Shown: positions 2,395-14,407 of the stretch, piece by piece | Layout of the letters: every line of letters begins with the position of its first letter | How positions within the stretch are numbered: position 1 is the stretch's first letter | Assembly (NCBI GenBank): GCA_016209865.1 | Contig: JACQVL010000271.1 | Location: 1 to 15,158, forward strand | Reading direction: 5' to 3' | Source of the DNA: Candidatus Latescibacterota bacterium | Lineage (GTDB): Bacteria > JAAXHH01 > JACQVL01 | DNA length: 15,158 nt | The notes under the pieces: model-generated | Seen by the model: only the letters and a program-made list of their open reading frames with translations | The model's database searches: none | Told to the model about the DNA's origin: nothing | Program-made: the position numbers and the translations under genes

Positions 2395-2567
2395 GAAAGG
2401 ACGAAGTATGAAGGACGGACGAAAAGGACGAAGTATGAAGGACGAAGGACGAAAAGGAAGAATGAAAAAGGGCTGTTGCCCTTCCTTTTTCATCCTTTGT
2501 CCTTGCCGTTTCATTTCGTCCTTCATCCTTTGTCCTTGCCGTTTCATTTCGTCCTTCATCCTTGCTC
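2395..2567. repeat. Inverted AAGGACG-type heptad arrays between malF- and malG-type genes
   Basis: The 173-bp gap is almost wholly repeat. The left arm (about 2395-2460) reads heptads such as AAGGACG and AAGTATG on the plus strand. The right arm (2491-2567) reads the complement and contains two identical 33-bp units (2491-2523 and 2524-2556) plus a partial third. Each unit on the minus strand is heptads of the type AAGGATG, AAGGACG, AAATGAA. Between the arms is a perfect hairpin, AAGGGC/GCCCTT with loop TGTT (2468-2483), extended by A/T-rich pairs. On the minus strand the array starts right after the MalF stop (TGA, GAGC, then heptads). The 33-bp unit equals 11 codons, so the frame stays open through the repeat. 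Confidence 0.85.
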
Positions 2568-3449
2568 TCACTTCCCCGCATAGTAGACATGTCTCTCCGA
2601 CACCTTCGTGGCGATGAGCGTCAGGCCGAGGATGAGCAGGAACAGCATCCACGCCATCGCGCAGGCATAGCCCATCCGGAGGTAGGTGAACGCGTTATCG
2701 TACAGGTACATCGTGTAGAACAGTGTCGCGCGGGCCGGACCGCCGCCCGTCATCACGTACGGGACGGCGAACACCTGCATCACCCCGATGATGCCGAGAA
2801 TCAGGTTGAAATAGATAACCGGCGAGATCATCGGGAGGGTGATGTGGCGGATTTTGTGGTGCCAGGACGCGCCGTCGAGGTCGGCGGACTCATAGAGATG
2901 GACGGGCACGTCCTGAAGCCCGGCCAGGTAGACGACGACCGCCCGGCCGATTCCCCAGAGACTCATCAACACGAGGGCGGGCTTGGCCCAGGCAGGATCG
3001 ACGAGCCAGCGGGGACCGGGCAGACCAATTGCCCCCAGGGCATAGTTCACGACCCCATACTGGGCGTTGAACATCCACAGCCAGAGGATGGCGAGTGCGA
3101 TCATCGGGACGAGGGAAGGGACGAAGAAGATCGCCCGGTAGAACACCATGCCGCGCACCTTCGTGTTGAGCAGCAGAGCGAGCGCGATCCCGCAGATCAG
3201 GTCGAGCGGCAGCGCGAAGGCAGCGTAGAACCCGGTATTCGACAGCGCCTTCCAGAAGACCTCGTCGGTGAACAGATCGCGGTAATTGTCCAGGCCGATC
3301 CAGGCGGCCGGGGTAAGGACGGAGTATTCGCACAGGCTGTAGTAGAGGGAAGCGAGAATGGGGTACAGTTCCCAGGCGACCAGGCCGATCAGCCAGGGCG
3401 AGACGAACAGCAGGCCGTTGCGCAGGTCACAGCGTTGTTGGCGGGACAT
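2568..3449 (-). CDS. MalF/UgpA-type carbohydrate ABC transporter permease
   Basis: A 293-aa inner-membrane permease of a CUT1 sugar importer, of normal length for the UgpA/LacF group. It has an early TM1 (LLFVSPWLIGLVAWELYPI), the VRGMVFYRAIFFVPSLVP block near 98-115 typical of the family, and the EAA loop at about 187-212 (ESADLDGASWHHKIRHITL, then PMISPVI). The motif TGGGPARAT near 234-242 is the family's usual conserved segment before TM5. The start ATG directly follows the TAA of the oxidoreductase gene (TAAATG), so translation is probably coupled; no good separate ribosome site is seen. It pairs with the MalG-type permease downstream to form the heterodimeric channel. The substrate cannot be inferred beyond a likely sugar or sugar derivative. 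Confidence 0.88.
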   Translation of the reverse strand: MSRQQRCDLRNGLLFVSPWLIGLVAWELYPILASLYYSLCEYSVLTPAAWIGLDNYRDLFTDEVFWKALSNTGFYAAFALPLDLICGIALALLLNTKVRGMVFYRAIFFVPSLVPMIALAILWLWMFNAQYGVVNYALGAIGLPGPRWLVDPAWAKPALVLMSLWGIGRAVVVYLAGLQDVPVHLYESADLDGASWHHKIRHITLPMISPVIYFNLILGIIGVMQVFAVPYVMTGGGPARATLFYTMYLYDNAFTYLRMGYACAMAWMLFLLILGLTLIATKVSERHVYYAGK

Positions 3450-4427
3450 TTACGCAACCGTCACCGGCCTGCCGGTCTGGGCGGAATCGTAGACGGCCCG
3501 GACGAGTTGCAGGGAGCGCTTCGCTTCCGCGCCGTCGATGCGCGGCGTACCGCCTTCGCGGACGACGCGGACGATGTCCTCGATGACGTTCTTCGGGCCG
3601 TCGTACGGGAAGGGGTCGGACTCCGATTCGCCGGGGATTTGCCATACCTCGATCTTGTTACTGGCCGTCATCACCACGCCACGATCGCCATGGATCTCCA
3701 TCCGGGGCGGGAAATCGTGCGGGCAGGTCGTCGTCCCCAAGATCGTCCCGACCGCGCCGTTCTGGAACGCGATCATCGCCATCCCTAAGTCTTCCGTTTC
3801 GATCTTGTGGGTGAACACCCCGATCTGGCCCCAGACGGTCTTGGGCGGTCCCATCAGCCAGACGAGGAGGTCGATCTGGTGGACTGTCTGGTTGATGAGC
3901 GACCCGCCCCCGTCCAGTTTCCAGGTGCCGTGCCACCCCTCGTAGTAGGCGTCGCTCCGGTACCACTTCAGCCGGGCCTCGCCCAGGATGAGCTTCCCCA
4001 GCCGGCCCTCCTGGATCGCCTGCCGGAGGCGGACGTTGTCGGCGACGTACCGGGACTCGAAATCGACAGCCAGGATGACGCCTGCTTGCTTGCAGGCCGC
4101 AATCATCGTATCTGCCCGCTCCAGGGTCACCTCGATCGGCTTCGTCGAGATCGCGTGCTTGCCCGCCTGGGCGGCGGCGATGACAAAATCGGCGTGCGTC
4201 CCGCTGGGGGTCATCACCATGATGGCGTCGATATCCGTGCGGTCGAGCAGCCGCCGGTAGTCGTCGTACCACTCGATCCCATACTTGGCTGCCGCTTTTT
4301 GGCCTCGTGCGGGGTCGATGTCCGCGACCGCGACGAGCCGCGCGCCGGCCATCTGGTGGATCAGTTCCGCGCGGGACGCCCCCATCCCAAGCCCGATCAC
4401 CCCGAACCCGACTGTATCTGCAGACAT
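3450..4427 (-). CDS. Gfo/Idh/MocA-family NAD(P)-dependent oxidoreductase
   Basis: A 325-aa cytosolic dehydrogenase, normal for the family. The N-terminal Rossmann fold has the dinucleotide loop GVIGLGMG (residues 9-16), followed by VADIDPARG. The family's EKP motif appears as TKP (residues 95-97), with Lys96 the expected catalytic or cofactor lysine. GGGSLINQTVHQIDLL (173-188) is the substrate-domain signature with His183. Such enzymes oxidise or epimerise sugars, inositols and related polyols. I chose ATG 4427 because AGAGGAG (4433-4439) sits five bases upstream. A start further upstream at 4529 would run through the terminator hairpin and heptad repeat. It is the first gene of the transport operon, which suggests that it processes the imported sugar. 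The Glu-to-Thr change in EKP is tolerated in some members and does not by itself mean inactivity. Confidence 0.88.
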   Translation of the reverse strand: MSADTVGFGVIGLGMGASRAELIHQMAGARLVAVADIDPARGQKAAAKYGIEWYDDYRRLLDRTDIDAIMVMTPSGTHADFVIAAAQAGKHAISTKPIEVTLERADTMIAACKQAGVILAVDFESRYVADNVRLRQAIQEGRLGKLILGEARLKWYRSDAYYEGWHGTWKLDGGGSLINQTVHQIDLLVWLMGPPKTVWGQIGVFTHKIETEDLGMAMIAFQNGAVGTILGTTTCPHDFPPRMEIHGDRGVVMTASNKIEVWQIPGESESDPFPYDGPKNVIEDIVRVVREGGTPRIDGAEAKRSLQLVRAVYDSAQTGRPVTVA

Positions 4428-4445
4428 TGGCGCTCCTCTGGGTAG

Positions 4446-4478
4446 AAAAACGGCTCTGCCAGGGGTTGAAGCAGAGCC
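4446..4478 (-). terminator. Intrinsic terminator just before the oxidoreductase ribosome site (possible attenuator)
   Basis: Read on the minus strand, GGCTCTGC (4478-4471) and GCAGAGCC (4459-4452) form a perfect 8-bp GC-rich stem with an 11-base loop, followed by GTTTTT (U-tract at 4450-4446). This is a classic Rho-independent terminator. It ends only about 6 bp before the AGAGGAG ribosome site of the Gfo/Idh gene at 4427, which leaves no room for a promoter after it. It therefore either ends transcription from the upstream gene with occasional read-through, or acts as a leader attenuator. Confidence 0.7.
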
Positions 4479-4487
4479 TCTCAACAG

Positions 4488-4627
4488 AGTGACGAGTGAC
4501 AAGTGACGAGCAAATTTAGAGCGAAGCATCGCGTCGTTCCTGAGACCCTTCGCTGCGCTCAGGGTGACATGGCGTGAGCGGTTCTTAATCTCAACCTTCT
4601 TTTACTCGTCACTCGTCACTTGTCACT
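4488..4627. repeat. Inverted AGTGACG-type heptad pair between the hypothetical gene and Gfo/Idh gene
   Basis: The left arm (4488-4510) reads AGTGACG, AGTGACA, AGTGACG, AG on the plus strand. The right arm (4605-4627) reads the complement; its reverse complement matches the left arm at 21 of 23 positions. On minus-strand RNA the arms could form a long imperfect stem enclosing about 94 bases. The enclosed segment holds its own inverted repeats: CCTGAG/CTCAGG (4539-4544 and 4558-4563), the competing ACCCT/AGGGT (4545-4549 and 4561-4565), and GCGAAG/CTTCGC (4521-4526 and 4548-4553). The right arm begins immediately after the TAG of the hypothetical gene. No gene lies in 4428-4628. Confidence 0.85.
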
Positions 4628-4628
4628 G

Positions 4629-4976
4629 CTATTCTTCAAACCGTCCCGACCCGACGGACAAGAACTCATTCGCTAACAACTCGCGGATAACGGCCACCTT
4701 CTCCTGCGACCGCATCCCGATCTCGCGTTTGACTTCCTCGCTCGCCAGTTCATCGACACAGCCGACTCGCTCGACGTACTCGGCGATGAGCTCTTCCTCC
4801 CAGTCGGCGCTGGCGTTGGCGGTGACGTAGACAGAATAGGTTCTGATGGGCAACGGATAATCATCCGGAATCATCGCCTGCACGTCCCGGATCACTTCAT
4901 TGACCCTTATTTCCTGCACCCCTCTGTCCTTCAGTTCCTTGATCATCTCATTCAGGTCATTGAATGTGATCTTCAC
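4629..4976 (-). CDS. Hypothetical protein, 115 aa
   Basis: I do not recognise this protein. The start is taken as GTG 4976 because AAAGGAG lies eight bases upstream; the longer frame to 5075 has low-complexity Arg/Cys-rich residues and no ribosome site. The 115-residue product is soluble and acidic. It has an N-terminal amphipathic helix (FNDLNEMIKELKDRGVQEIR), a central beta-like stretch (YPLPIRTYSVYVTANA) and a charged helical C-terminal half with one Cys in ERVGCVDELASEEVKREIG. There is no signal peptide, TM segment or obvious catalytic motif. It is divergent from hisG across 325 bp and is followed by heptad repeats and a terminator, so it may be a single-gene unit. The good ribosome site and natural amino-acid composition support a real gene. 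Function unknown. Confidence 0.7.
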   Translation of the reverse strand: MKITFNDLNEMIKELKDRGVQEIRVNEVIRDVQAMIPDDYPLPIRTYSVYVTANASADWEEELIAEYVERVGCVDELASEEVKREIGMRSQEKVAVIRELLANEFLSVGSGRFEE

Positions 4977-5153
4977 TGCCCAAACTCCTTTCTGTCTGCG
5001 CCGAGTGTTCGTCAGATCGGCGTAGAGACACGGACGCGCATACGGATGCGCCGGAAGGAACGCACACGACGCCACCGGTACGGCCGGACGGCTGGGCGTG
5101 GTCCATTCCAGTTAATCATACAAAATCCTCCGGTCTACACCAGACCTGCTTAT

Positions 5154-5182
5154 ACCCTAACAGAACCTCCCGGCGATGTCAA
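5154..5182 (-). promoter_or_regulatory. Possible promoter for the hypothetical gene
   Basis: On the minus strand TTGACA (5182-5177) is followed by 17 bases and TAGGGT (5159-5154). The -35 is perfect but the -10 is poor (3 of 6, keeping the TA and final T). It would give a leader of about 170 nt before GTG 4976, containing the GGTCT/AGACC inverted repeat just downstream of the start. Assignment is tentative. Confidence 0.3.
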
Positions 5183-5224
5183 GCTCTTTTTCATGGTGTG
5201 GCTGCGAATTTTCCTGATGGACTT

Positions 5225-5265
5225 TTGGGAGAGAGAATGTTATTTTTAAAAATATCAACATGTTG
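5225..5265 (+). promoter_or_regulatory. AT-rich palindromes and weak promoter upstream of hisG
   Basis: Two adjacent perfect palindromes lie 37-61 bp before the hisG start: TATTTTTAAAAATA (5241-5254) and CAACATGTTG (5256-5265). A weak -35 (TTGGGA, 5225-5230) with 16-bp spacing to TAAAAA (5247-5252) would place the transcription start inside the second palindrome, a classic repressor position. The promoter match is weak; the palindromes are certain, but their role is inferred. Confidence 0.35.
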
Positions 5266-5301
5266 TTCGGAGTTGTCCGCCGCTGAAAAGGAGTCTTCCC
5301 G

Positions 5302-6171
5302 ATGAAATTGAAGCTCGCATTGCCCAAAGGCAGCTTACAAGAATCCACGATGGAACTGATGCGGAGAGCGGGGTTCCACTGTTCCCTCAGCAGCCGATCC
5401 TACTTTCCCTGGGTCGATGACGAGGAACTGGACGCGATGCTCATCCGCGCGCAGGAGATCGCCCGGTACGTCGAGGACGGGGTGTTCGATGCCGGACTGA
5501 CGGGCAAGGACTGGATCCTGGAGACGGGCGCGGTGGTCGTGGAAGTGGCGGACCTGGTGTACGCCAAGCAGACCCGTCAGCCGTTCCGGTGGGTCCTGGC
5601 CGTCCCGGAGAATTCGCCCATCCAGACCGTCCATGACCTCGAAGGTAAGCGGATTTCGACGGAGATCGTCAACCTGACTCGAGCGTACCTGGAGAAGCAC
5701 GGTGTCCGGGCGGACATCGAATTCTCCTGGGGAGCGACGGAGGCGAAGGCCCCCGACTTAGCGGACGCGATCGTCGACGGGACGGAGACGGGGAGTTCGC
5801 TCCGGGCGAACAAGCTGCGGGTGCTGGACACCATCTTAGAATCGACGACGAAGCTGATCGCTAACACGTCGAGCTGGGAAGACCCGTGGAAGCGGCACAA
5901 GATCGAGAACGTCGCCATGCTGCTGCAAGGAGCGATCCTGGCGGACGGCATGGTGGGGCTGAAGATGAACGTGAGCCGGAACGACCTGGATCAGGTGCTC
6001 GGTCTCCTGCCCGCCCTGAAGCGGCCGACCATCTCCGGCCTGGCGGACGAACAGTGGGTCGCGATCGAGGTGATCATCGATGAATCAGCGGTGCGCGAAC
6101 TCATCCCGGCGCTGAAGCGGGCGGGGGCACAGGGGCTGGTGGAGTATCCGTTGAATAAGGTGATCTATTGA
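5302..6171 (+). CDS. hisG: ATP phosphoribosyltransferase, long form (first step of histidine biosynthesis)
   Basis: Cytosolic enzyme that joins ATP and PRPP to make phosphoribosyl-ATP, the committed step of histidine synthesis. At 289 aa it is the long, allosteric form, not the short form of about 210 aa that needs HisZ. Visible motifs are the N-terminal [11 protein letters not shown], the DAGLTGKDW segment (63-71), and the PRPP-binding loop [12 protein letters not shown] (159-170). The C-terminal 75 or so residues form the ACT-like regulatory domain that binds histidine. The start ATG 5302 has AAAAGGAG (5286-5293) at proper spacing. It heads a plus-strand unit with hisC and mutY. Feedback inhibition by histidine is expected from the family; palindromes upstream may add transcriptional control. 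Confidence 0.95.
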
Positions 6172-6174
6172 GAG

Positions 6175-6192
6175 CAGTGACGAGTGACGAGT
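6175..6192 (+). repeat. Single-arm AGTGACG heptad array between hisG and hisC
   Basis: The 33-bp gap between hisG and hisC contains CAGTGACGAGTGACGAGT, about two and a half AGTGACG heptads, followed by AAAACAGG. It begins 3 bp after the hisG TGA with GAGC, the same junction as at the other sites, and closely matches the array after the hypothetical gene (GACGAGTGACGAGTAAAA is shared). No complementary arm precedes hisC. Confidence 0.75.
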
Positions 6193-6204
6193 AAAACAGG
6201 CTAA

Positions 6205-7290
6205 ATGATGAACGCTGACTTCCTCCACACCATCAAGCCGGGCATTCGGGCGATGAAAGGCTATACCCTCGTCCAGCCGGTCTGTCCGATCAAACTCAAC
6301 CAGAACGAATGTCCGTTCGACGTCCCGGTTGACCTGAAGCGCGACATCCTGGCTGAGGCCGCCGGCCGCGACTGGGGCCGGTATCCCGATTTCGTGCCGA
6401 CGGCGGTCAAGGCGAAAATCGGGGCGTACAACGGGGTCGCTCCGGACGGCGTGCTCATCGGCAACGGGTCGAACGAACTCATCCAGGCGACGTTCATCGC
6501 CACCGTCTCTAAGGGCGACCGGGTCGTCCTCGCCGTCCCGACGTTCACCCTCTACGGCCTGATGAGCACGGCGATGGACGGGGAGTTGTGCCCGGTACGA
6601 TTGCGGCCCGATCTGTCGTTCGACGTCGACCGGCTCGTCGCAGAGGCCGGACATCCGGGCACGAAGCTGGTCATCCTCTGCTCGCCCAACAACCCGACCG
6701 GCTCCTTCATCACCCCGGATGACGTCGCGCGCATCGCGGACGCGACGCCCGGCCTCGTCGTCGTGGACGAGGCCTACCATGAGTTCGCAGGACTGACGAA
6801 CATCGGACTGCTCGCCCGGTATCCCAACCTGGTGATCACCCGGACGTTCTCCAAAGCGTTAGGCGCGGCGGGCCTGCGCATCGGCTACCTGATCGCCCGG
6901 CCGGAGATCGCCCGGGAGATCGAGAAGGTGAAGCTCCCCTACAACGTCAATCAGGTCTCCCTGATCGCCGCCATGCGCCTGTTGGATGAACGCGCCCTGA
7001 TCGAGGAGCGGGTCGGGTTCATCCGTGCGGAACGGCAGCGCGTGTTCGAGCGCCTCTCCCGGACCGAGGGCGTCCGGCCATTTCCGTCCGTCGCGAATTT
7101 CATCCTGTTCGAAGTCGACCGGGATGTCAGGCAGGTCTTTCACGGCCTGATCGAGCGCGGGGTGCTGATTCGGGATGTCAGTCACTACCCGATGCTCGAC
7201 CGGGCGATGCGGGTGACTATCGGACTGGAGGCGGAGAATGAGGCGTTCTTGAAGGCACTGGAAAAGGTGATGACACAGACTCGCTCATGA
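6205..7290 (+). CDS. hisC: Histidinol-phosphate aminotransferase (PLP, aminotransferase class I/II)
   Basis: Cytosolic PLP enzyme that transaminates imidazole-acetol phosphate with glutamate to give histidinol phosphate. It is 361 aa, normal for HisC. The substrate-binding start KLNQNECPF (30-38), SPNNPTG (160-166), VDEAYHEF (187-194) and the Schiff-base lysine K217 in RTFSKALGAAGLRIGY are all present, and MRVTIG (335-340) supplies the carboxylate-binding Arg. It follows hisG by 33 bp, which supports HisC over another class I/II aminotransferase. The start is ATG ATG at 6205/6208 with only a weak AGG upstream, so either Met is possible. Its last four bases (ATGA) overlap the mutY start, so the two are translationally coupled. 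Confidence 0.92.
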   Translation: MMNADFLHTIKPGIRAMKGYTLVQPVCPIKLNQNECPFDVPVDLKRDILAEAAGRDWGRYPDFVPTAVKAKIGAYNGVAPDGVLIGNGSNELIQATFIATVSKGDRVVLAVPTFTLYGLMSTAMDGELCPVRLRPDLSFDVDRLVAEAGHPGTKLVILCSPNNPTGSFITPDDVARIADATPGLVVVDEAYHEFAGLTNIGLLARYPNLVITRTFSKALGAAGLRIGYLIARPEIAREIEKVKLPYNVNQVSLIAAMRLLDERALIEERVGFIRAERQRVFERLSRTEGVRPFPSVANFILFEVDRDVRQVFHGLIERGVLIRDVSHYPMLDRAMRVTIGLEAENEAFLKALEKVMTQTRS

Positions 7291-7976
7291 GCAAGCGTAC
7301 CCCCTCCCCACACAAGACTTCTGCTCCCCTCGACACAAGCCTGAAGCGCACCTTCCAGCGCAGGCTGCTGAAATGGTACACCGAACACGGCCGCGACCTC
7401 CCGTGGCGGGAGACGTCCGACCCCTACCATATCCTCGTCTCCGAGATCATGCTCCAGCAGACGCAGGTGGAGCGGGTGCTTCCGAAGTACCATGAATTCC
7501 TGGGGAAGTACCCGACCCTGGAAGACCTGGCGGGTGCATCCGTTCAGGAAGTCACACAGGCCTGGTACCCGCTCGGCTACAACATCCGGCCCGTCCGCCT
7601 GCACACGATCGCGCGCGAAGCGGTGGAACAGCACGGGGGACGGCTTCCCGACGACCCGGAGGTGCTGCAATCGTTCAAAGGGATCGGCCGGTACACGGCG
7701 GGCGCCATCCTCTCCTTCGCGTTCCAGAAAGCCGCGCCCATCCTCGACACGAATGTTATGCGGGTGCTCCATCGCATCTTTCTCGGTCCGGGCGACCCGA
7801 AGCGGGGCAACGTCCGGCAGGTGCTGTGGGAACTGGCGGAACGACTCATTCCGACCAAGCGTGCGTACGACTTTAATCAAGCTCTGATGGATTTCGGCGC
7901 GCTCGTCTGCACGGCGAAAAAACCCGCCTGTCTCCTCTGCCCGATGAACGACATCTGCAAGGCCGGACCGATGTGA
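7287..7976 (+). CDS. mutY: Short A/G-specific adenine glycosylase (MutY/MIG type), lacking the 8-oxoG-recognition domain
   Basis: DNA-repair glycosylase of the HhH-GPD superfamily; MutY removes adenine opposite 8-oxoguanine or G. The catalytic Glu is E53 in ILVSEIMLQQTQV, the HhH motif is FKGIGRYTAGAI (130-141), and the catalytic Asp is D154 in PILDTNVMRV. The [4Fe-4S] ligands are C208, C215, C218 and C224 (C-x6-C-x2-C-x5-C). All catalytic residues align with E. coli MutY at a constant offset of 16. The protein ends five residues after the last cluster Cys (229 aa against about 350), so the C-terminal NUDIX-like domain that reads 8-oxoG is absent. The usual LGYYAR is LGYNIR here. A mismatch glycosylase of MIG-like specificity is therefore possible. 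The start overlaps the hisC stop (ATGA). Confidence 0.85.
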   Translation: MSKRTPSPHKTSAPLDTSLKRTFQRRLLKWYTEHGRDLPWRETSDPYHILVSEIMLQQTQVERVLPKYHEFLGKYPTLEDLAGASVQEVTQAWYPLGYNIRPVRLHTIAREAVEQHGGRLPDDPEVLQSFKGIGRYTAGAILSFAFQKAAPILDTNVMRVLHRIFLGPGDPKRGNVRQVLWELAERLIPTKRAYDFNQALMDFGALVCTAKKPACLLCPMNDICKAGPM

Positions 7977-7978
7977 AT

Positions 7979-8007
7979 CCCTTTCGTCCTTACTCCTTCG
8001 TCCTTGC
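7979..8007. repeat. AAGGACG-type heptad array between convergent mutY and barrel genes
   Basis: The 32-bp gap between convergent stops is filled by a pyrimidine-rich stretch on the plus strand. On the minus strand, just after the barrel gene's TAA, it reads GGC, then AAGGACG, AAGGAGT, AAGGACG, AAAGGG. It matches the arms of the malF-malG repeat but is single-armed. No terminator-like hairpin is seen for either gene. Confidence 0.7.
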
Positions 8008-8008
8008 C

Positions 8009-9199
8009 TTAAAAATACGTCGCCACGCTGAACAGCACCGCCCGGCCGGGGGTGATGTTGTTCACCCCGTCCGCCGTCCGGCGGTACTGGTACTCCAGTT
8101 TCAACGCAGTGTCCTCTGCCGGACGAAAGTTCAGGCCGACCGTCACCCGTTGCTGTCCGTCTCCTTTGACGGCCGTGTCAAAATCGACCGCGTCAAACCG
8201 GACGACCCCGGTCAGGCTGGAGTTGGGGAGGACGGGCGACAGGCGGGTGAGGAACCGGTACCCGACCTGGGCGTAGACGCCTTGCTGGTCGCTGGCCAGG
8301 AACCCCTTGAGCTGGCGGGGGAGGTCGACATGGGCGTGCGCGTACTCGCCCTGCAGGGAGAACGCCCCGCGCCGGTACTCCAGGTCCGCGCCGAAGATCG
8401 AGAGGTACTGCCGGTTCTCGACAGGGAGGCCGTCCCGGCTGGAGACGTTGTACTGCCCGGCGTGGAACGATCCGCCGAACTCCAGCCCGCGTGACGGACT
8501 GATCGCCACCCGTCCGACCGCCGCCGGCACGTTATTGTTGTCCTCCTCTAAGCTGCCCCGCCCGTCCTTGATGCTCGTCACCGCGTTGCTGATGACCCCT
8601 TCATTGAACCCGTTCACCGCGTAGAGTTCGTACGTCAGCCGGGTTGAGAGCGACGGATAGAACGCCCCCCAGAAGCCTATGCCCGCCTCTGAGAGGGTCG
8701 ATGGAATGATCTCAGTCGTGACGAGCGGGCGGTCGGTCAATTCGTTCTGCGGCGCGTCGTGCGTCAGGTTGAACTTGCCCAGCGGGGAGAGGATGATCCC
8801 GGCCCGAACGTTGAGTTCTTCACGCACTTCAAGATCGACGACCACGTACTCGAGTTTGATCTCTTCTCCCCCGTTCTCGAACTCGATCTCTGAGCCGAGA
8901 CGGACACGATCCGTGACGACCGAGTACGTGAAGAGATTAAACCGGTGCAGCGTGAACGCGACTTCTTCGGTGATTCCGCCTTCCCGTTCGGCCCGGAACT
9001 GAAAATCCCCGTACCCTCCGATCGTCGTCTTCCCCCCTAAGCGGGTGATGAACGGTTTATCGTAGATGCCGCCCGACACGAACGGGCGCGAGGCGCTCGA
9101 CACCGAATCCTGCGCCGTCTGAGCAGACCCGGACTGGATGTCGAGCGCAACTGCGACGACGATGAAGCTGATCAGGCTGAGTGTCCAGTGTTTCATCAT
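8009..9199 (-). CDS. Outer-membrane beta-barrel (porin-like) protein
   Basis: A 396-aa exported protein. Residues 1-25 or so form a Sec signal peptide (hydrophobic core LSLISFIVVAVAL, probable cleavage after SGSAQ). The mature part has alternating polar/hydrophobic strands such as TIGGYGDFQFRAE and RLTYELYAVNGF, and ends VLFSVATYF with the terminal Phe required by the BAM machinery. Size and layout suit a general or phosphate-selective-like porin of 16-18 strands, but I cannot assign substrate or subfamily. The start is ATG 9199 or ATG 9196; GGGGAG lies six or nine bases upstream respectively. It is the last gene of the minus-strand iron/redox island and follows the Rieske gene by 17 bp, so it is probably co-transcribed with it. 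It is the best evidence that the organism has an outer membrane. Confidence 0.75.
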   Translation of the reverse strand: MMKHWTLSLISFIVVAVALDIQSGSAQTAQDSVSSASRPFVSGGIYDKPFITRLGGKTTIGGYGDFQFRAEREGGITEEVAFTLHRFNLFTYSVVTDRVRLGSEIEFENGGEEIKLEYVVVDLEVREELNVRAGIILSPLGKFNLTHDAPQNELTDRPLVTTEIIPSTLSEAGIGFWGAFYPSLSTRLTYELYAVNGFNEGVISNAVTSIKDGRGSLEEDNNNVPAAVGRVAISPSRGLEFGGSFHAGQYNVSSRDGLPVENRQYLSIFGADLEYRRGAFSLQGEYAHAHVDLPRQLKGFLASDQQGVYAQVGYRFLTRLSPVLPNSSLTGVVRFDAVDFDTAVKGDGQQRVTVGLNFRPAEDTALKLEYQYRRTADGVNNITPGRAVLFSVATYF

Positions 9200-9216
9200 G
9201 CCGTACTCCCCACCTT

Positions 9217-9648
9217 TTATCCGAGATGAATCGTCACCGTCGTGCCTGCGACGTCGACCGCATACGCGAGCAACGACTGTTTCGCCGGGCCGTTGATGAC
9301 CCTGCCCTCAAAATCGTACACCGACCCATGGCAGGGACAGCGCAACGCCAGACGGGTTTTGCGGACCTGGCATCCGAGATGGGTGCAGATCGTCGAGACC
9401 GCCCGGTACTCCTCCGCTCCGGTCCGGATGAGCAGGAGCGGGTCGCTCAGCCGGGAGGGTTTCACATGGATCGCACCGCCGACTTCTGCGAGTTCCTGGA
9501 ACATCGCGGTGTCAACGACGAGGCGGCCGTTTTGAGGCGCCACCTCCAGGGTCGTCATCGCCGCGCATCCCAGGGCGAGACCCGTGCCGAGTAATGCCAT
9601 GCCCGATTGTGTGAGGAATGACCGGCGGGAGAGGACAGGATGGGACAT
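9217..9648 (-). CDS. Tat-exported Rieske [2Fe-2S] lipoprotein
   Basis: A 143-aa electron-transfer protein. The N-terminus carries a twin-arginine signal (LSRRSFL, R8-R9), a hydrophobic stretch and a lipobox LALGC (C28), so it should be exported folded and lipid-anchored on the periplasmic side. The cluster motifs CTHLGC (88-93) and CPCHGS (104-109) give ligands C88, H90, C104 and H107 and the C93-C106 disulfide of bc1-type Rieske proteins. S109 and Y111, which raise the redox potential in bc1 Rieske, are also kept, suggesting a high-potential cluster. ATG 9648 is chosen because the Tat signal starts here and GGAG is at good spacing. No cytochrome b or c1 gene is nearby, so it is not in a standard bc1 operon. 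It lies between a di-heme lipoprotein and an outer-membrane barrel; partners are unknown. Confidence 0.88.
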   Translation of the reverse strand: MSHPVLSRRSFLTQSGMALLGTGLALGCAAMTTLEVAPQNGRLVVDTAMFQELAEVGGAIHVKPSRLSDPLLLIRTGAEEYRAVSTICTHLGCQVRKTRLALRCPCHGSVYDFEGRVINGPAKQSLLAYAVDVAGTTVTIHLG

Positions 9649-9666
9649 GGAACGGCTCCGAAGAGT

Positions 9667-9773
9667 AGTGACGAGTGACGAGTCAAGAATGTCTTCTTGT
9701 TTTCGCAAGAATGACAAGCTATACAAATATTGAAATTTTTTAACTTGTCACTGGTCACTTGTCACTCGTCACC
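9667..9773. repeat. Inverted AGTGACG-type heptad pair with inner hairpin between di-heme and Rieske genes
   Basis: The left arm (9667-9684) reads AGTGACG, AGTGACG, AGTC on the plus strand. The right arm (9742-9773) is the complement, with four heptads starting 4 bp after the di-heme gene's TAA on the minus strand (AGGC, then GGTGACG). The enclosed segment has a strong hairpin at 9690-9716: TGTC and TTCTTG pair with CAAGAA and GACA around loop TTTTCG, with one bulged base. An AT-rich stretch with a T-run (9732-9742) lies beside it. The complementary arm ends about 20 bp before the Rieske start. Confidence 0.82.
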
Positions 9774-9777
9774 GCCT

Positions 9778-11007
9778 TTACAACGAATTCAAAAACGCGA
9801 TCAACGCGCGGCGGTCCGCCTCGCTCAGGCTGAGGAAGCGGTCGCGCGCGCCCTGGGCTTCCCCGCCGTGCAGCCGGATGGCCTCAGCCAGGTCGGACGT
9901 GCGCGCGTCGTGCAGGTACACCGGCAGGCCGCCGAGGAACCGCCCGACGAGCCGCAGCCCCCAGAGCGGCCGGGTACGCCATTCGGTCCCGGTCGCGTCG
10001 TGGTCGGGCCGGCCGTCCGCCAACTCCGGCCCCAGGTCGTGGAGGAGCAGGTCGGAGTAGAGATGAACGTCCTGGTTGCTCAACTGCGGGATGTCGTGAG
10101 GCCCGGTTCGCATCGTCGGGACGTGGCACGTGGCGCAGCCGATCGACTGGAACACCTGCTCACCCTGCGTCACGGCCGGGGTGATCCTCCCACGGGCGGG
10201 GGGCGCGAGCAGCCGGAGGTACATGACGGTCTGCAGGACGGTGGCGGCGGAGATCTCCGGGTCGGCGACCTCATCCCCCACGCTCACCCCGTGTCCCAGC
10301 GGATTCGGATTCTCCACCGGCCGGTATTCGCTCGTCATGCCGATATCCTGATGGTACGCCCCGACGACCTGTGCGAGTAATGAAGTATTATTGGCTTTCA
10401 GGCCGAACCGTCCGATGTTCAGACCCGGCCTGCCGCCCACTTCGGTCACCGGGACGAAGTCGGCGGCCGGGACCCGGTTGGCCCGGCCGGAGATGCCGTC
10501 CCCGTTCGCATCTCCGGGGTCCTCACGGGAGAGGATTTCCGACTCCGGGATGGCCTCGATCAGCCCCATGCCGAAGACGGGGGGACCGGCACGCGGTGAG
10601 GTGAGGGCTCCTGACGGAAGCGTCTCTGGCGGTACGCCCGGTATGCTGAACTGCTGGAGTTGCGGCTCTCCCGTCAGCAGCGGGTCTCCGCCGGGGACGG
10701 TGAACCGGAAGAAGGTGACCGACGACGGCCCGCGCCCGTCCCCCGGATGGCAGCCCGCACACGCGGTATGGTTGAAGAGAGGGCCGAGCCCCTCTTTGAT
10801 CGTGAAGACGTGGTCAAAGTTCCCGTCGCCCTGACTGAACATCACATTCAGATGCGGTGCGAGACCAGGCAGAGGGGCATCGAAGGTCTCACCCTCCTTC
10901 GGCGGGTTGGTCACGAGCGCGTTGCAACCGGTGAACAGGAACAGGCCGGCCAGGACCGCCGTGACAGTTCGAATGAATCGTGGATGAGGGAAGCGAGTGT
11001 GTTTCAT
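9778..11007 (-). CDS. Di-heme oxidoreductase lipoprotein (DUF1111, cytochrome c peroxidase-like)
   Basis: A 409-aa periplasmic lipoprotein. The signal peptide ends in lipobox LFTGC (C28). Two covalent heme c sites are present, CAGCH (83-87) and CATCH (291-295), as in the di-heme peroxidase/MauG superfamily. DANGDGISGRANRV (166-179) is the Ca-binding-like loop typical of the DUF1111 'thiol oxidoreductase' group, and TEWRTRPLWGLR, YLHDART, HGGEA and LIAFLNSL near the C-terminus match it in order. The true reaction of this group is not settled; it is often found near periplasmic iron-binding imelysin-type proteins. The start has GAGG seven bases upstream. It begins 15 bp after the FeoB membrane-domain stop, so it is almost certainly in the feo operon. 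A role in iron redox chemistry is inferred from this position. Confidence 0.88.
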   Translation of the reverse strand: MKHTRFPHPRFIRTVTAVLAGLFLFTGCNALVTNPPKEGETFDAPLPGLAPHLNVMFSQGDGNFDHVFTIKEGLGPLFNHTACAGCHPGDGRGPSSVTFFRFTVPGGDPLLTGEPQLQQFSIPGVPPETLPSGALTSPRAGPPVFGMGLIEAIPESEILSREDPGDANGDGISGRANRVPAADFVPVTEVGGRPGLNIGRFGLKANNTSLLAQVVGAYHQDIGMTSEYRPVENPNPLGHGVSVGDEVADPEISAATVLQTVMYLRLLAPPARGRITPAVTQGEQVFQSIGCATCHVPTMRTGPHDIPQLSNQDVHLYSDLLLHDLGPELADGRPDHDATGTEWRTRPLWGLRLVGRFLGGLPVYLHDARTSDLAEAIRLHGGEAQGARDRFLSLSEADRRALIAFLNSL

Positions 11008-11022
11008 AGTAGAACCTCGTGA

Positions 11023-12456
11023 TCATATCAACCCGAATACCCGTATGCCTTGATTCAGGATGAACAACAGCAGAAACGCGATGGCCAGCGGCAGGAGTCC
11101 GCTGACCACCGCCCATCTGGTGCTCTTCGTCTCCTGGTAGACCGTCCAGATCGTCGTGGAGCAGGGGTTGTGCAGGAGGGAGAAGAGCATCAGGCTGATG
11201 GCGGTCATCAGCGTCCACCCGTGCTGGCCGACCAGCAGGTGCTGGAGCTGAGCCAGGTTGTCGATCTCCACCATCCTCCCCGCGCTGGTGTAGGCCATCA
11301 GGATGGTGGGGACGACGATCTCGTTCGCCGGGATGGCGATGATGTATGCTAAGAGAATCACCCCATCCAGGCCGACCGCGTGTCCCGCCGGGTTCAGCCA
11401 GCCGGAGGTCCAGTCGGTCAGGCTCTGCCCGGACACCTGAAGGTTGCTCAGCAACCAGATCGCCCCGCCCGACGGCGCGGCCATCACCACCGCCCGCCAC
11501 AGGACGAACAGCGTCCGGTCGATGATGGAGGTGTACAGGACGCGCAGGACGTTGGGACGCCGGTACGGCGGGAGTTCGAGGGTAAAGCTGCTGGCCTCCC
11601 CTTTCAGGACGGTGCGGGAGAGCAGAGCGGAGACGAGCAGGGTCATCAGTCCGCCGATGACGACGATGAGGACGAGCGACCCGGCGGCCGCGATCGCGGC
11701 CAGGGACGGGGGAAACGCGGCGGCGACGAACAGGGTGGCCAGCATGATCAGCGTCGGCCAGCGGCCGTTGCAGGGCATGAAGTTGTTGGTCAGGATGGCG
11801 ATCAACCGCTCGCGGGGGGAGTCGATGATCCGGCAGGCGATGACCCCCGCCGCGTTGCAACCCAGCCCCATGCTCATCGTCAACGCCTGTTTGCCGTGTG
11901 CGCCCGCTTTCTTGAAGAGATGATCGATGTTGAACGCGACGCGCGGCAGGTAGCCCAGGTCTTCCAGGATGGTGAAGATCGGGAAGAAGATCGCCATCGG
12001 CGGCAGCATCACCGAGACGACCCAGGCCAGCCCGCGATAGACCCCGTGCCACAGGAAGCCGGTCACCCACCACGGCAGGCCAGCTCCCGCAAACAGCGCA
12101 GCCCCGTGATCTTCGACCCAGAAGAGGAAGGAGGCGAGCAGGGCTGACGGATAGTTGGCGCCGACGATGGTCACCCAGAACACCCCCGCTAAGAGCACGA
12201 ACATGAGGGGGAGGCCCCACACTTTCGACGTGACGATCCGGTCGATCCGCTGGTCGAGATGGGCGTAGCGCGAGCCCTGCTGGCGCACGACTCGACTGGT
12301 GATCGCTTCAGCATCCGTGTAGATGGATTCTACGATCTTGTCGCGGAATGCGACATCCATCGTCCGCTGGAGGGCTTCGGCCCTGGCCAGAATCTCCCGT
12401 GCCGTCGCGGGACCGGGCGCGGTCATCGTCTGGTTGTCCAGTTGTCCCTCGTTCAT
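11023..12456 (-). CDS. feoB: FeoB membrane domain encoded as a separate gene (ferrous iron transport)
   Basis: The 477-aa permease half of FeoB, which moves Fe(II) across the inner membrane. It starts within the linker after the GTPase and GDI helices (LDQRIDRIVTSKVWGLP before TM1) and contains both Gate regions: GLGCNAAGVIACR (197-209) followed by RERLIAILTNNFMPCNGRWP, and IPANEIVVP (375-383), with Cys200, Cys229 and Cys432. FMPCNGRWP and IPANEI resemble the Firmicutes/Bacteroidetes-type FeoB, not the E. coli type. Its ATG shares one base with the GTPase gene's stop (TGATG), and GGAGG lies seven bases upstream (12464-12468), so the split is real and not a frameshift. The two parts total 753 aa, about one full FeoB. 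It needs the separate GTPase protein to work. Confidence 0.92.
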   Translation of the reverse strand: MNEGQLDNQTMTAPGPATAREILARAEALQRTMDVAFRDKIVESIYTDAEAITSRVVRQQGSRYAHLDQRIDRIVTSKVWGLPLMFVLLAGVFWVTIVGANYPSALLASFLFWVEDHGAALFAGAGLPWWVTGFLWHGVYRGLAWVVSVMLPPMAIFFPIFTILEDLGYLPRVAFNIDHLFKKAGAHGKQALTMSMGLGCNAAGVIACRIIDSPRERLIAILTNNFMPCNGRWPTLIMLATLFVAAAFPPSLAAIAAAGSLVLIVVIGGLMTLLVSALLSRTVLKGEASSFTLELPPYRRPNVLRVLYTSIIDRTLFVLWRAVVMAAPSGGAIWLLSNLQVSGQSLTDWTSGWLNPAGHAVGLDGVILLAYIIAIPANEIVVPTILMAYTSAGRMVEIDNLAQLQHLLVGQHGWTLMTAISLMLFSLLHNPCSTTIWTVYQETKSTRWAVVSGLLPLAIAFLLLFILNQGIRVFGLI

Positions 12457-13286
12457 CACGTGACCTCCAGTGACAGAGCAGGCTCTTCCGCTTTTCGCTC
12501 CGGGGATTGTCCCGCCCCGGCCAATCGGAGGAGTTCCCCGCTTTCCAGGGCCTGACGGATCCGGTAGTCGCCGTCGAGCAGCCGCATCGCCACCCACCGG
12601 GCGTTGGGCAGGCCTGGGTAAGCGGCTTCGAGCAGGGGCACCAGCTCGGCCACCGCCCGGTTCAGGTCTGGATTCCCGGTGATCCGGTGCGGGGTCGTCT
12701 GGGTCTGTCCCTCGATGATCTCAGCGACAGTGCGCATCAGCAGACCCAGTCCTTCGCCCAGCCGGGCTGCGGTGGGGACGACCGGGACGCCTAAGTCGCG
12801 GGCGAGCGCCCGGTGATCGACGTCGATCCCCTTGCGACGCGCCTCGTCCATCAGGTTCAGACAGACGACGACTCTGTCGGTGATCTCGAGCACCTGTAAC
12901 ACCAGGTTCAGGTTCCGCTCCAGCACCGTGGCATCGACGACGACGACCGTACAGTCCGGCTTGCCGAACAGGATGAAATCGCGGGCGATTTCCTCATCGA
13001 CCGAGGCGGAGAGCAAAGAATACGTCCCCGGTAGGTCGATGATCTTGTACCGTTTCCCGTTGAACTCGAACCCGCCTTCAGCCCGGACGACGGTCTTCCC
13101 CGGCCAGTTGCCGGTGTGCTGTTTCAGGCCGGTCAGGGCGTTGAAGACGGTGCTCTTCCCGACGTTCGGGTTGCCCGCTAACCCCACCACATAATCCCAG
13201 TCGTCGACCTGGATGCCCATCTGCACCAGGTGCGCGTGCAGGGCGCAAGACTCGCAATGATGGCCACTGGGTGGCTTAGGTGCCAT
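12456..13286 (-). CDS. feoB: FeoB GTPase (G plus GDI/S domain) encoded as a separate gene
   Basis: The 276-aa soluble GTPase half of FeoB. G-motifs are G1 GNPNVGKS (38-45), switch I/G2 around NWPGKT (60-65), G3 DLPG (84-87), G4 NLMD (144-147) and G5 near PTAARLG (171-177). The helical S/GDI domain follows (about 200-260). An N-terminal extension carries HHCESCALH (9-17), a possible metal site with Cys11, Cys14 and flanking His. The C-terminal tail (about 261-276) looks disordered. The gene ends in TGA overlapping the membrane-domain start by one base, so both should be made in step. AAGGA lies about nine bases before ATG 13286. It is separated from the upstream DtxR-FeoA gene by 99 bp containing an inverted heptad pair and a U-run, which could lower expression relative to the regulators. 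Confidence 0.92.
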   Translation of the reverse strand: MAPKPPSGHHCESCALHAHLVQMGIQVDDWDYVVGLAGNPNVGKSTVFNALTGLKQHTGNWPGKTVVRAEGGFEFNGKRYKIIDLPGTYSLLSASVDEEIARDFILFGKPDCTVVVVDATVLERNLNLVLQVLEITDRVVVCLNLMDEARRKGIDVDHRALARDLGVPVVPTAARLGEGLGLLMRTVAEIIEGQTQTTPHRITGNPDLNRAVAELVPLLEAAYPGLPNARWVAMRLLDGDYRIRQALESGELLRLAGAGQSPERKAEEPALSLEVT

Positions 13287-13304
13287 AGAAGAGGTTCCTT
13301 GTAT

Positions 13305-13394
13305 CAGTGACGAGTGACCAGTGACGAGTCAGGAGCAAAAAAAAGAACCCTGGCCTTCTGAAACTATTTCTCTACTCGTCACTGATCACTGCTC
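13305..13394. repeat. Inverted AGTGACG-type heptad pair between DtxR-FeoA and FeoB GTPase genes
   Basis: The left arm (13305-13330) reads CAGTGACGAGTGACCAGTG and on to ACGAG on the plus strand. The right arm (13373-13394) is the complement. The right arm contains the TGA stop of the DtxR-FeoA gene (13388-13386), so its last residues Glu-Gln are written by the repeat. The 42-base loop has, on the minus strand, GAAATAGTTTC (a small hairpin) and a run of eight T's. The complementary arm ends about 18 bp before the FeoB start. Confidence 0.82.
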
Positions 13395-14390
13395 TTTTCC
13401 CTTCGCCTCAATCCAGATCCAATCCGATTGCTCCCGGCGGAGCGCGATCAGGGCGCCGCGCACCCGGTAGGCGGTCGGTTCCCCGAACGCGCTCTGCATC
13501 ACCGGCTCGATCAGGACGCCGGGGGTGATGCCCAGGTCGAGGAACCGGCGGCGCGTCAGGCCCTGGCACATCGGGTCGAGCGCCGTGACGCGTCCCTGCT
13601 CCCCCACGGTCAAGGTCGTCAACCGTTCGACCGGCCGGCCTGGAGCGGCCTGCGGCGCCTCATGCACCCAGATGTTGGCCGCCACCACCGGGGCCAGGAC
13701 GTGTTCCACCGCGTCGGCTTCGACGACCAGGCGCGTCGAGGTGGCTTCGACGACCGTCACCACCATCCCCAGCCCCAGCCCGGCGGCCACGATCTGGGCG
13801 TACACCTCGGGCGGCTCATCCTCGATGTGGACGATCTGCGCCGGTCTGGCTGTCTCCCAGTCGACCAGGGAGCAACCGGTCATCGCCGGTATCTCACCGG
13901 TGGATGTGGGAATCGGATCACCCTGCGGGTCGAAGGCCGGATGGCCGAGGGCAGCGTCCATCCGATCCAGGTCGGCCACCGACAGGGTGTGCTCCAGCCG
14001 ATGGGCGCGCGCGTGGATCTCCTCCATCGGCACCTCCGTCTCGTCGGCTAAGTACCGCTCGAACAGCCGATGGGCGCGGACGACCTGCAGCGCCCAGTGG
14101 TAGCCGTCCGGGGAGAGCCGTAAACCGTCCCCGGTCGCCGTCAGGAGACCCTGCGCTTCCATCCGCTGGACGAGCCCCAGTGCGTCGTTCGTCCCGATCC
14201 TGAGCATGCTCGCTACCGACTCGACAGACGCGAGACGGCGCTCATGCTGTCGCTGATGGAGGTGCATCAGCGCATCCTCGATCGCCTGGCGCGAGAGGAG
14301 CCGCCGTCTGCGCTGCCACCGGACATACAGCCCGCGATCAGGCCATAACAACACGAGGACGAGGACAAGGATGACGATCCAGATGACCAT
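13386..14390 (-). CDS. Membrane-anchored DtxR-family regulator fused to two FeoA-like domains
   Basis: A 334-aa protein. Residues 2-17 are a hydrophobic helix (VIWIVILVLVLVLLWP) followed by a basic stretch (RWQRRRR), giving an N-terminal anchor with the rest in the cytoplasm. Residues 35-97 are a DtxR winged helix, and 98-160 the metal-binding/dimerisation domain, with likely ligands D39, H107, E111, H126, H130, E133 and H134. Two SH3-like FeoA domains follow: a degenerate one (about 172-243) and a clear one (about 254-328, RRRFLDLGITPGVLIEP and YRVRGALIALR). ATG 14390 is preferred because GGTGGAG lies nine bases upstream; a GTG at 14405 has no ribosome site. It begins 17 bp after the repressor gene. 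There is no separate feoA, so the second domain may serve as FeoA for the split FeoB. DNA binding is expected from the fold, not shown. Confidence 0.85.
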   Translation of the reverse strand: MVIWIVILVLVLVLLWPDRGLYVRWQRRRRLLSRQAIEDALMHLHQRQHERRLASVESVASMLRIGTNDALGLVQRMEAQGLLTATGDGLRLSPDGYHWALQVVRAHRLFERYLADETEVPMEEIHARAHRLEHTLSVADLDRMDAALGHPAFDPQGDPIPTSTGEIPAMTGCSLVDWETARPAQIVHIEDEPPEVYAQIVAAGLGLGMVVTVVEATSTRLVVEADAVEHVLAPVVAANIWVHEAPQAAPGRPVERLTTLTVGEQGRVTALDPMCQGLTRRRFLDLGITPGVLIEPVMQSAFGEPTAYRVRGALIALRREQSDWIWIEAKGKEQ

Positions 14391-14407
14391 ACGGCAGCGC
14401 TCCACCC

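Follow-up and report, generated by a model that had tools for sequence, protein, structure and literature searches.

Stop-codon-anchored heptad repeats of about ten families, often in inverted pairs, in a Latescibacterota genome

Heptad arrays and genes of the window

Our analysis concerns arrays of degenerate 7-bp repeats (heptads) in a 15,158-nucleotide stretch, here called the window, from a Candidatus Latescibacterota bacterium (assembly GCA_016209865.1, contig JACQVL010000271.1). The window is contig 230 of a 3.75-Mb genome of 356 contigs, the sole representative of its family among the genomes searched. A preliminary description of this sequence had placed AGTGACG- or AAGGACG-type heptads in six gaps between genes, and a direct check of the sequence found arrays at all six places (Table 1). 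Each array lies 0–5 nt from the stop codon, or includes the stop, of a gene whose sense strand carries the purine form; the junction is often GAGC or AGGC and leads into purine-strand heptads in the sense of the gene. As had also been described, an inverted partner arm precedes the next gene in four of the gaps (1, 2, 5 and 6). The genes flanking the arrays are ordinary and encode ABC permeases, a Gfo/Idh/MocA oxidoreductase, HisG, a MutY-like HhH-GPD protein, a porin-like protein, a Rieske protein, a di-haem oxidoreductase and a DtxR/FeoA-domain protein. HisG, upstream of the single AGTGACG-type array, has its domains intact to the C terminus, and the array behind the porin-like gene occupies a convergent gap shared with the HhH-GPD gene. 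A search of Rfam gave no match anywhere in the window.

Table 1. Positions of heptad arms and related features in the window and at other loci
Feature	Position	Strand	Context	Basis
AAGGACG/AAGTATG-type partner arm	2396..2454	+	before start (2394, minus strand) of ABC permease gene 1591-2394	sequence check; family scan
AAGGACG-type arm	2484..2567	-	directly behind stop 2568-2570 (TGA), junction GAGC; ABC permease gene 2568-3449, minus strand	Pfam PF00528 (permease)
AGTGACG-type partner arm (AGTGACG AGTGACA AGTGACG AG)	4488..4510	+		sequence check
AGTGACG-type arm	4604..4627	-	one base behind stop 4629-4631 (TAG) of minus-strand open reading frame (ORF) 4629-5075	
Single AGTGACG-type array	6176..6192	+	behind HisG stop 6169-6171 (TGA), junction GAGC; then AAAAC	
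AAGGACG-type array	7984..8005	-	behind stop 8009-8011 (TAA) of minus-strand porin-like gene 8009-9199	
AGTGACG-type partner arm	9667..9683	+	before Rieske-protein gene 9217-9660 (minus strand)	
AGTGACG-type arm	9743..9773	-	behind stop 9778-9780 (TAA) of di-haem oxidoreductase gene 9778-11007	
AGTGACG-type partner arm	13306..13329	+	before FeoB G-domain gene 12456-13286 (minus strand)	gene name from its sequence
AGTGACG-type arm	13374..13390	-	encloses stop 13386-13388 of DtxR/FeoA-domain gene 13386-14405	
FeoB, apparently split over two adjacent ORFs	12456-13286 and 11023-12456 (window 11023-13286)		adjoins DtxR and FeoA-domain genes	translations
Other dispersed repeats nested in inter-arm cores	4530-4580; 9690-9715			
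TGGGCAG arrays within a longer unit	L031:2150-2175; L037:4326-4348; L083:11416-11500; L045:4400-4500			
Array inside ORF, MlrC-like protein	L047:9720-9752			
Array inside ORF, nucleotidyltransferase	L032:6388-6419			
Array inside ORF, methionyl-tRNA synthetase	L070:6688-6716		linker	
Array inside ORF, SMC	L045:11847-11874		hinge	

Families, stop anchoring and pairing across the genome

The arrays of the window belong to a large set. Across the 3.75-Mb genome there are 564 occurrences of the motif AGTGACRAGTGACR and none of the reversed control pattern; searches of 58 other genomes, including 15 from the same order, did not find the motif. Our genome sample comprised 1.49 Mb (40% of the genome), of which a first scan covered 1.12 Mb; genes were called with a purpose-written codon-usage caller, whose stops are exact for each chosen frame and whose starts are approximate. 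In the first 1.12 Mb, a family-blind self-similarity search detected 195 intergenic and 39 genic arrays of period 7; at the other periods examined, not counting multiples of 7, there were 0–25 intergenic arrays. In the full sample, 86% of which is coding sequence, only 25 of 441 arrays lie inside genes. At least ten heptad types were distinguished: AGTGACG, TCGGTGG, GATTTTG, AAGGACG, GGGGTTC, TCAGGGG, TGGGCAG, AGAGTGA, GCGGATT and AAATGGG. Arrays mostly span about 31 bp (4.5 units), with family medians of 30–33 bp in most families and 27 bp in TCGGTGG and TGGGCAG. The outer, gene-side flank is A-rich and often ends in C, and the inner flank is likewise A-rich. Identical variant patterns recur across loci (the seventh positions of AGTGACG arrays read GCGG 16 times and GAGG 12 times), and the same 31-mer was found at many loci. 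Unlike the other families, TGGGCAG arrays are part of a longer repeated unit (GCCCGGCGGGGCAGG...GAAGCCGTTCCCCCGTCCACTGCC). Array positions do not account for breaks in the assembly, since 9 of 242 contig ends fall at arrays and 6.4 would be expected.

The placement relative to genes is strongly oriented. Within 25 bp of a stop, 179 arrays point outward, with the purine strand in the sense of the gene, and 9 inward; the corresponding numbers within 25 bp of a start are 82 and 10. The patterns that the preliminary description had named as speaking against it, namely random placement or orientation and arrays as common inside genes as between them, were therefore not seen. Arrays without a partner separate the two ends of the gene: 81 point outward and 7 inward at stops, as against 20 and 14 at starts. 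Moreover, when at least 80 nt of other gap was available, 34 of 41 single sense arrays still lay within 25 nt of the stop; 10 were expected and simulations never exceeded 20. Single arrays of minus sense in roomy gaps sit mostly 56–130 nt past the stop, a position that leaves space for a first arm. Since partnerless arrays obey the orientation at stops and hardly at starts, and since single arrays stay by the stop despite room elsewhere, the anchor is the stop codon and not the start. Per kb, divergent gaps are 2.6 times poorer in arrays. AGTGACG arrays contain TGA in all three frames, which inflates the count of stops inside arrays for this family; however, families without stops in the sense orientation are anchored to stops just as AGTGACG is. 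A stop-codon cassette for all frames, considered as a general design, holds for the AGTGACG and AGAGTGA families only. The presence of arrays in all gap types and their inverted symmetry could also suit a site acting at the DNA level, i.e. a cruciform or protein-binding repeat that shapes the chromosome, as arrays of repetitive extragenic palindromes (REPs) and bacterial interspersed mosaic elements (BIMEs) can. We consider this improbable, as the orientation tracks the gene and its stop rather than the chromosome strand and follows little rule at starts.

Two further explanations are plain microsatellite slippage and G-quadruplex motifs as proposed for GGGAATC repeats. One duplicate pair that differs by a single heptad in one arm is what slippage would produce, and the GGGGTTC and TCAGGGG families do carry G-runs. 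The narrow array lengths and the identical variants recurring at many loci argue against slippage alone. The potential for G-quadruplexes (four G-runs, a trait of the G-rich subtype and not of short tandemly repeated repetitive sequences, STRRs, generally) is not a property of this set: the consensus units of AGTGACG, AAGGACG, GATTTTG and TCGGTGG contain no GGG, and G-runs occur only in GGGGTTC, TCAGGGG, TGGGCAG and AAATGGG. As heptads that cannot form a G-quadruplex obey the same architecture, this structure is argued against as the general reason for it. Both explanations are already disfavoured for the non-G families, and together they are very unlikely.

Pairing follows an equally strict order. 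Of the gaps that hold exactly two arrays, 70 run from purine to pyrimidine arm and none runs in the reverse order. Both arms belong to the same family in 62 of 75 two-array gaps (14 expected); for arrays that flank a gene on either side, the figure is 16 of 61 (12 expected). Furthermore, in 36 of 165 single-array gaps an inverted partner below the strength of the finder was present on the expected side, and on the other side in none. The spacer between arms has a median of 58 nt (10–90% range 35–110) and is uncorrelated with the length of the remaining gap (Spearman -0.02). When the folding of 52 co-directional pairs was predicted, 86% of the bases in the first arm paired with the second arm, giving a stem of about 30 bp that starts a few bases past the stop and closes a loop of about 58 nt. 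The long stem proposed earlier thus stands as a predicted inverted stem but does not bridge the gap: because the spacer is short and does not scale with what is left of the gap, the module is a compact hairpin that hangs on the stop, and not a pair of arms stretched between two genes. Structure within the cores between the arms was looked for and not found (mean z -0.36), and the arms are not inverted copies of each other, being no more similar than unrelated arms. Other dispersed repeats are nested in some cores, in the window and elsewhere (L186, L101 and others); they are CCCTTCGCTGCGCTCAGGGTGACA-type repeats and GTCATTCCCGC/ATTCCCGC..GCGGGAAT REP-like palindromes, with 78 and 50 pattern matches in the sample.

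A hairpin directly past the stop, occurring also in convergent gaps, resembles an intrinsic (Rho-independent) or bidirectional terminator. However, the U-tract that should follow a GC-rich stem was not found: the 10 nt past the distal arm hold 3.1 T on average, with at least 6 T in 6% of cases, and the T-rich stretch lies inside the module, ahead of the distal arm. The dimensions of the hairpin (about 30 bp of stem, about 58 nt of loop) also fit poorly, and modules separate apparent operon partners, such as two ABC permeases. We therefore regard terminators as unlikely, and the earlier idea of uncoupled operon genes, if achieved by intrinsic termination, lacks the T-tract it would call for.

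Probable copying of single arms and a candidate role in mRNA

Two conserved genes carry insertions of single arrays, each 36 nt (12 residues) long. A TCAGGGG array lies in a nucleotidyltransferase whose same-order relatives (54–56% identity) are gapped there by 12–13 residues, and a GGGGTTC array lies in an MlrC-like protein whose closest PDB homologue has a 12-residue gap at the array. Further arrays inside ORFs were seen in methionyl-tRNA synthetase and SMC; in-ORF arrays encode low-complexity peptides such as SRTPNPEPRTPS and QGSGVRGQGS. For the SMC hinge, comparison of lengths with solved hinges showed no clear insertion. Moreover, two loci (L071 and L032) share a composite of about 124 bp; an AGTGACG array of about 28 nt distinguishes them, which makes them resemble a filled and an empty site. 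Arrays of different families are chained through A-rich linkers, with TCGGTGG before AGTGACG in 8 cases and the reverse in 1. Recurrent variants, insertions and the empty-site-like pair suggest spread by copying, with the single arm as the probable copied unit, and lend partial support to the earlier idea of a mobile repeat. A pair of arms is unlikely to have moved as a single element with a shared core, the ~124-bp composite of two loci aside, since 48 of 61 cores have no match elsewhere in the sample and most others match other repeats; terminal inverted repeats around a shared core, as in miniature inverted-repeat transposable elements (MITEs), were accordingly not found.

Taken together, these dispersed REP-like elements most likely function as stem-loops at the 3′ ends of mRNAs, or are tolerated as such. 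More specifically, we tentatively favour small STRR-like or REP-like elements whose arms act mainly as RNA stem-loops behind stops. The basic unit would be one arm of about 31 bp with 4–5 heptads of one family, bounded on the gene side by an A-rich junction ending in C (typically AAGAGC) and on the inner side by an A-rich stretch (typically AAAAAC). It would be placed directly past a stop, its purine strand running in the gene's sense direction, and would often be followed about 58 nt on by an inverted arm of the same family. In a transcript running beyond the stop, the two arms could pair, a few bases after the stop codon, into a stem of about 30 bp. At the end of an mRNA or between cistrons, this stem may be a structural barrier to 3′-to-5′ exonucleases and may also affect terminating ribosomes and intercistronic processing. 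Such a role would be analogous to that of stop-proximal REP elements in E. coli: REPs up to 15 nt from a stop reportedly stall ribosomes (PMC12306157), and REPs are reported to stabilise mRNA 3′ ends (PMC13289151). The missing T-tract together with the stop-anchored orientation along transcription favours a role in mRNA of this kind, and the protection of mRNA 3′ ends suggested earlier fits the geometry of the module. Selection presumably underlies the stop anchoring and the same-family pairing.

Several observations weigh against a role of these stem-loops in mRNA. Arrays per gap amount to 0.38 in convergent, 0.34 in divergent and 0.30 in co-directional gaps, and many stop-anchored arrays have no detectable partner. 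Arms of one pair match at 0.941 and re-paired same-family arms at 0.945, so that selection for exact complementarity is not visible. In one gene duplicate the module was retained in full, and one arm differs by a single heptad, which indicates that slippage also acts. Because convergent and divergent gaps are equally occupied and excess complementarity is absent, a selfish element with a preference for 3′ ends follows closely. This possible, though less probable, explanation holds that single units are copied, perhaps via RNA, downstream of genes in a transcription-linked choice of target, that pairing arises when later copies join or mirror existing ones, and that there is no cellular function. 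It accommodates the 36-nt units within conserved genes, the empty-site-like pair, the fixed order of chains, the mostly unrelated cores and the paired arms that are no more alike than strangers. However, it leaves unexplained why weak same-family partners of single arrays lie downstream only, and no mobilising enzyme was found: no match to the Y1 transposase (PF01797) of REP-associated tyrosine transposases (RAYTs) was found in this genome, in an assembly estimated to be 83% complete and with other transposases and reverse transcriptases not searched, which also speaks against copying by RAYTs.

Both ideas could be combined, if speculatively. Single arms of about 36 nt (4–5 heptads plus A-rich linker) might be tiny mobile units copied behind stops in a transcription-linked orientation, with a same-family unit in inverse orientation being placed or retained about 60 nt downstream, so that interchangeable families make 3′-end hairpins in a design that recurs with other heptads in unrelated bacteria.

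Comparison with known heptamer repeats

Tandem heptamers have been reported to be the most abundant intergenic tandem repeats across a broad range of prokaryotes, with no indication of their function (PMC6344855). The arrays described here share the tandem unit of period exactly 7 and the many dispersed, mostly intergenic copies of STRR and GGGAATC-type repeats. In our searches, GATTTTR triplets were found in 18 of 384 genomes, including the present one and one of the same order; most of the others are far apart. In one carrier (G291), close neighbours on opposite strands run plus then minus, as read from the match table, where gene positions are not available. IMG/VR contigs selected for one heptad family contained 532 arrays of period 7, compared with 3–62 at other periods, and many further families and inverted pairs. 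Purine-first pairs outnumbered the reverse by only 29 to 15, suggesting that the leading strand depends on the genome or family. In IMG/VR contigs 41 of 53 AGTGACR arrays are adjacent to stops, a number we set aside as biased, since such an array brings its own stops in all frames. Four contigs filed as viral with several heptad families and inverted pairs, including GTCCAAG, AGGAGTT and GAGTTAA types (L325, IMGVR_UViG_3300035696_002251; L356; L370; L371), may be misfiled host DNA.

Among described systems, REP, BIME and REPIN elements with their RAYT transposases are likewise dispersed, extragenic and stem-forming, often near stops and often inverted doublets. Their units are palindromic and not tandem heptads, whereas here the unit is a tandem heptad array. 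Cyanobacterial STRRs are degenerate heptads too, and in the P6b element of the Nostoc trnL intron heptads form both sides of a paired stem, and its Class I motif TDNGATT (PMC4476775) fits our GATTTTG family; that stem lies within an intron, while those described here lie behind the stops of ordinary genes. TAACTGA repeats of marine Beggiatoaceae are also dispersed, intergenic, direct heptamers (2–6 copies), but they lie just upstream of starts and inverted pairing is almost absent (PMC4679880).

The closest precedent is provided by the GGGAATC or GGGGA(C/T)T heptamers of Xanthomonas and Nostoc (Rehm et al. 2015, PMC4692102), so that the pattern, which the preliminary description had not recognised, had already been reported for a G-rich heptad. 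These repeats are intergenic with a preference for four units, are located close to stops when on the coding strand or close to starts when on the non-coding strand, include stops inside arrays and form inverted pairs on opposite strands; G-quadruplexes were suggested for them. Our arrays agree in the 7-bp unit, the preference for about four units, the stop-proximal placement on the coding strand and the inverted pairs. In contrast to the single G-rich family per genome described there, about ten families coexist here, most of them unable to form a G-quadruplex, and the arrays have defined A-rich ends and occur as single-unit insertions inside genes. The present genome thus separates sequence from architecture, as many different heptads share a common length, stop anchoring, orientation and pairing, and it makes testable whether a stem past the stop matters and how a single unit arrives there. 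Overall, the arrays are a multi-family form of the heptamer-repeat pattern earlier reported in Xanthomonas and Nostoc.

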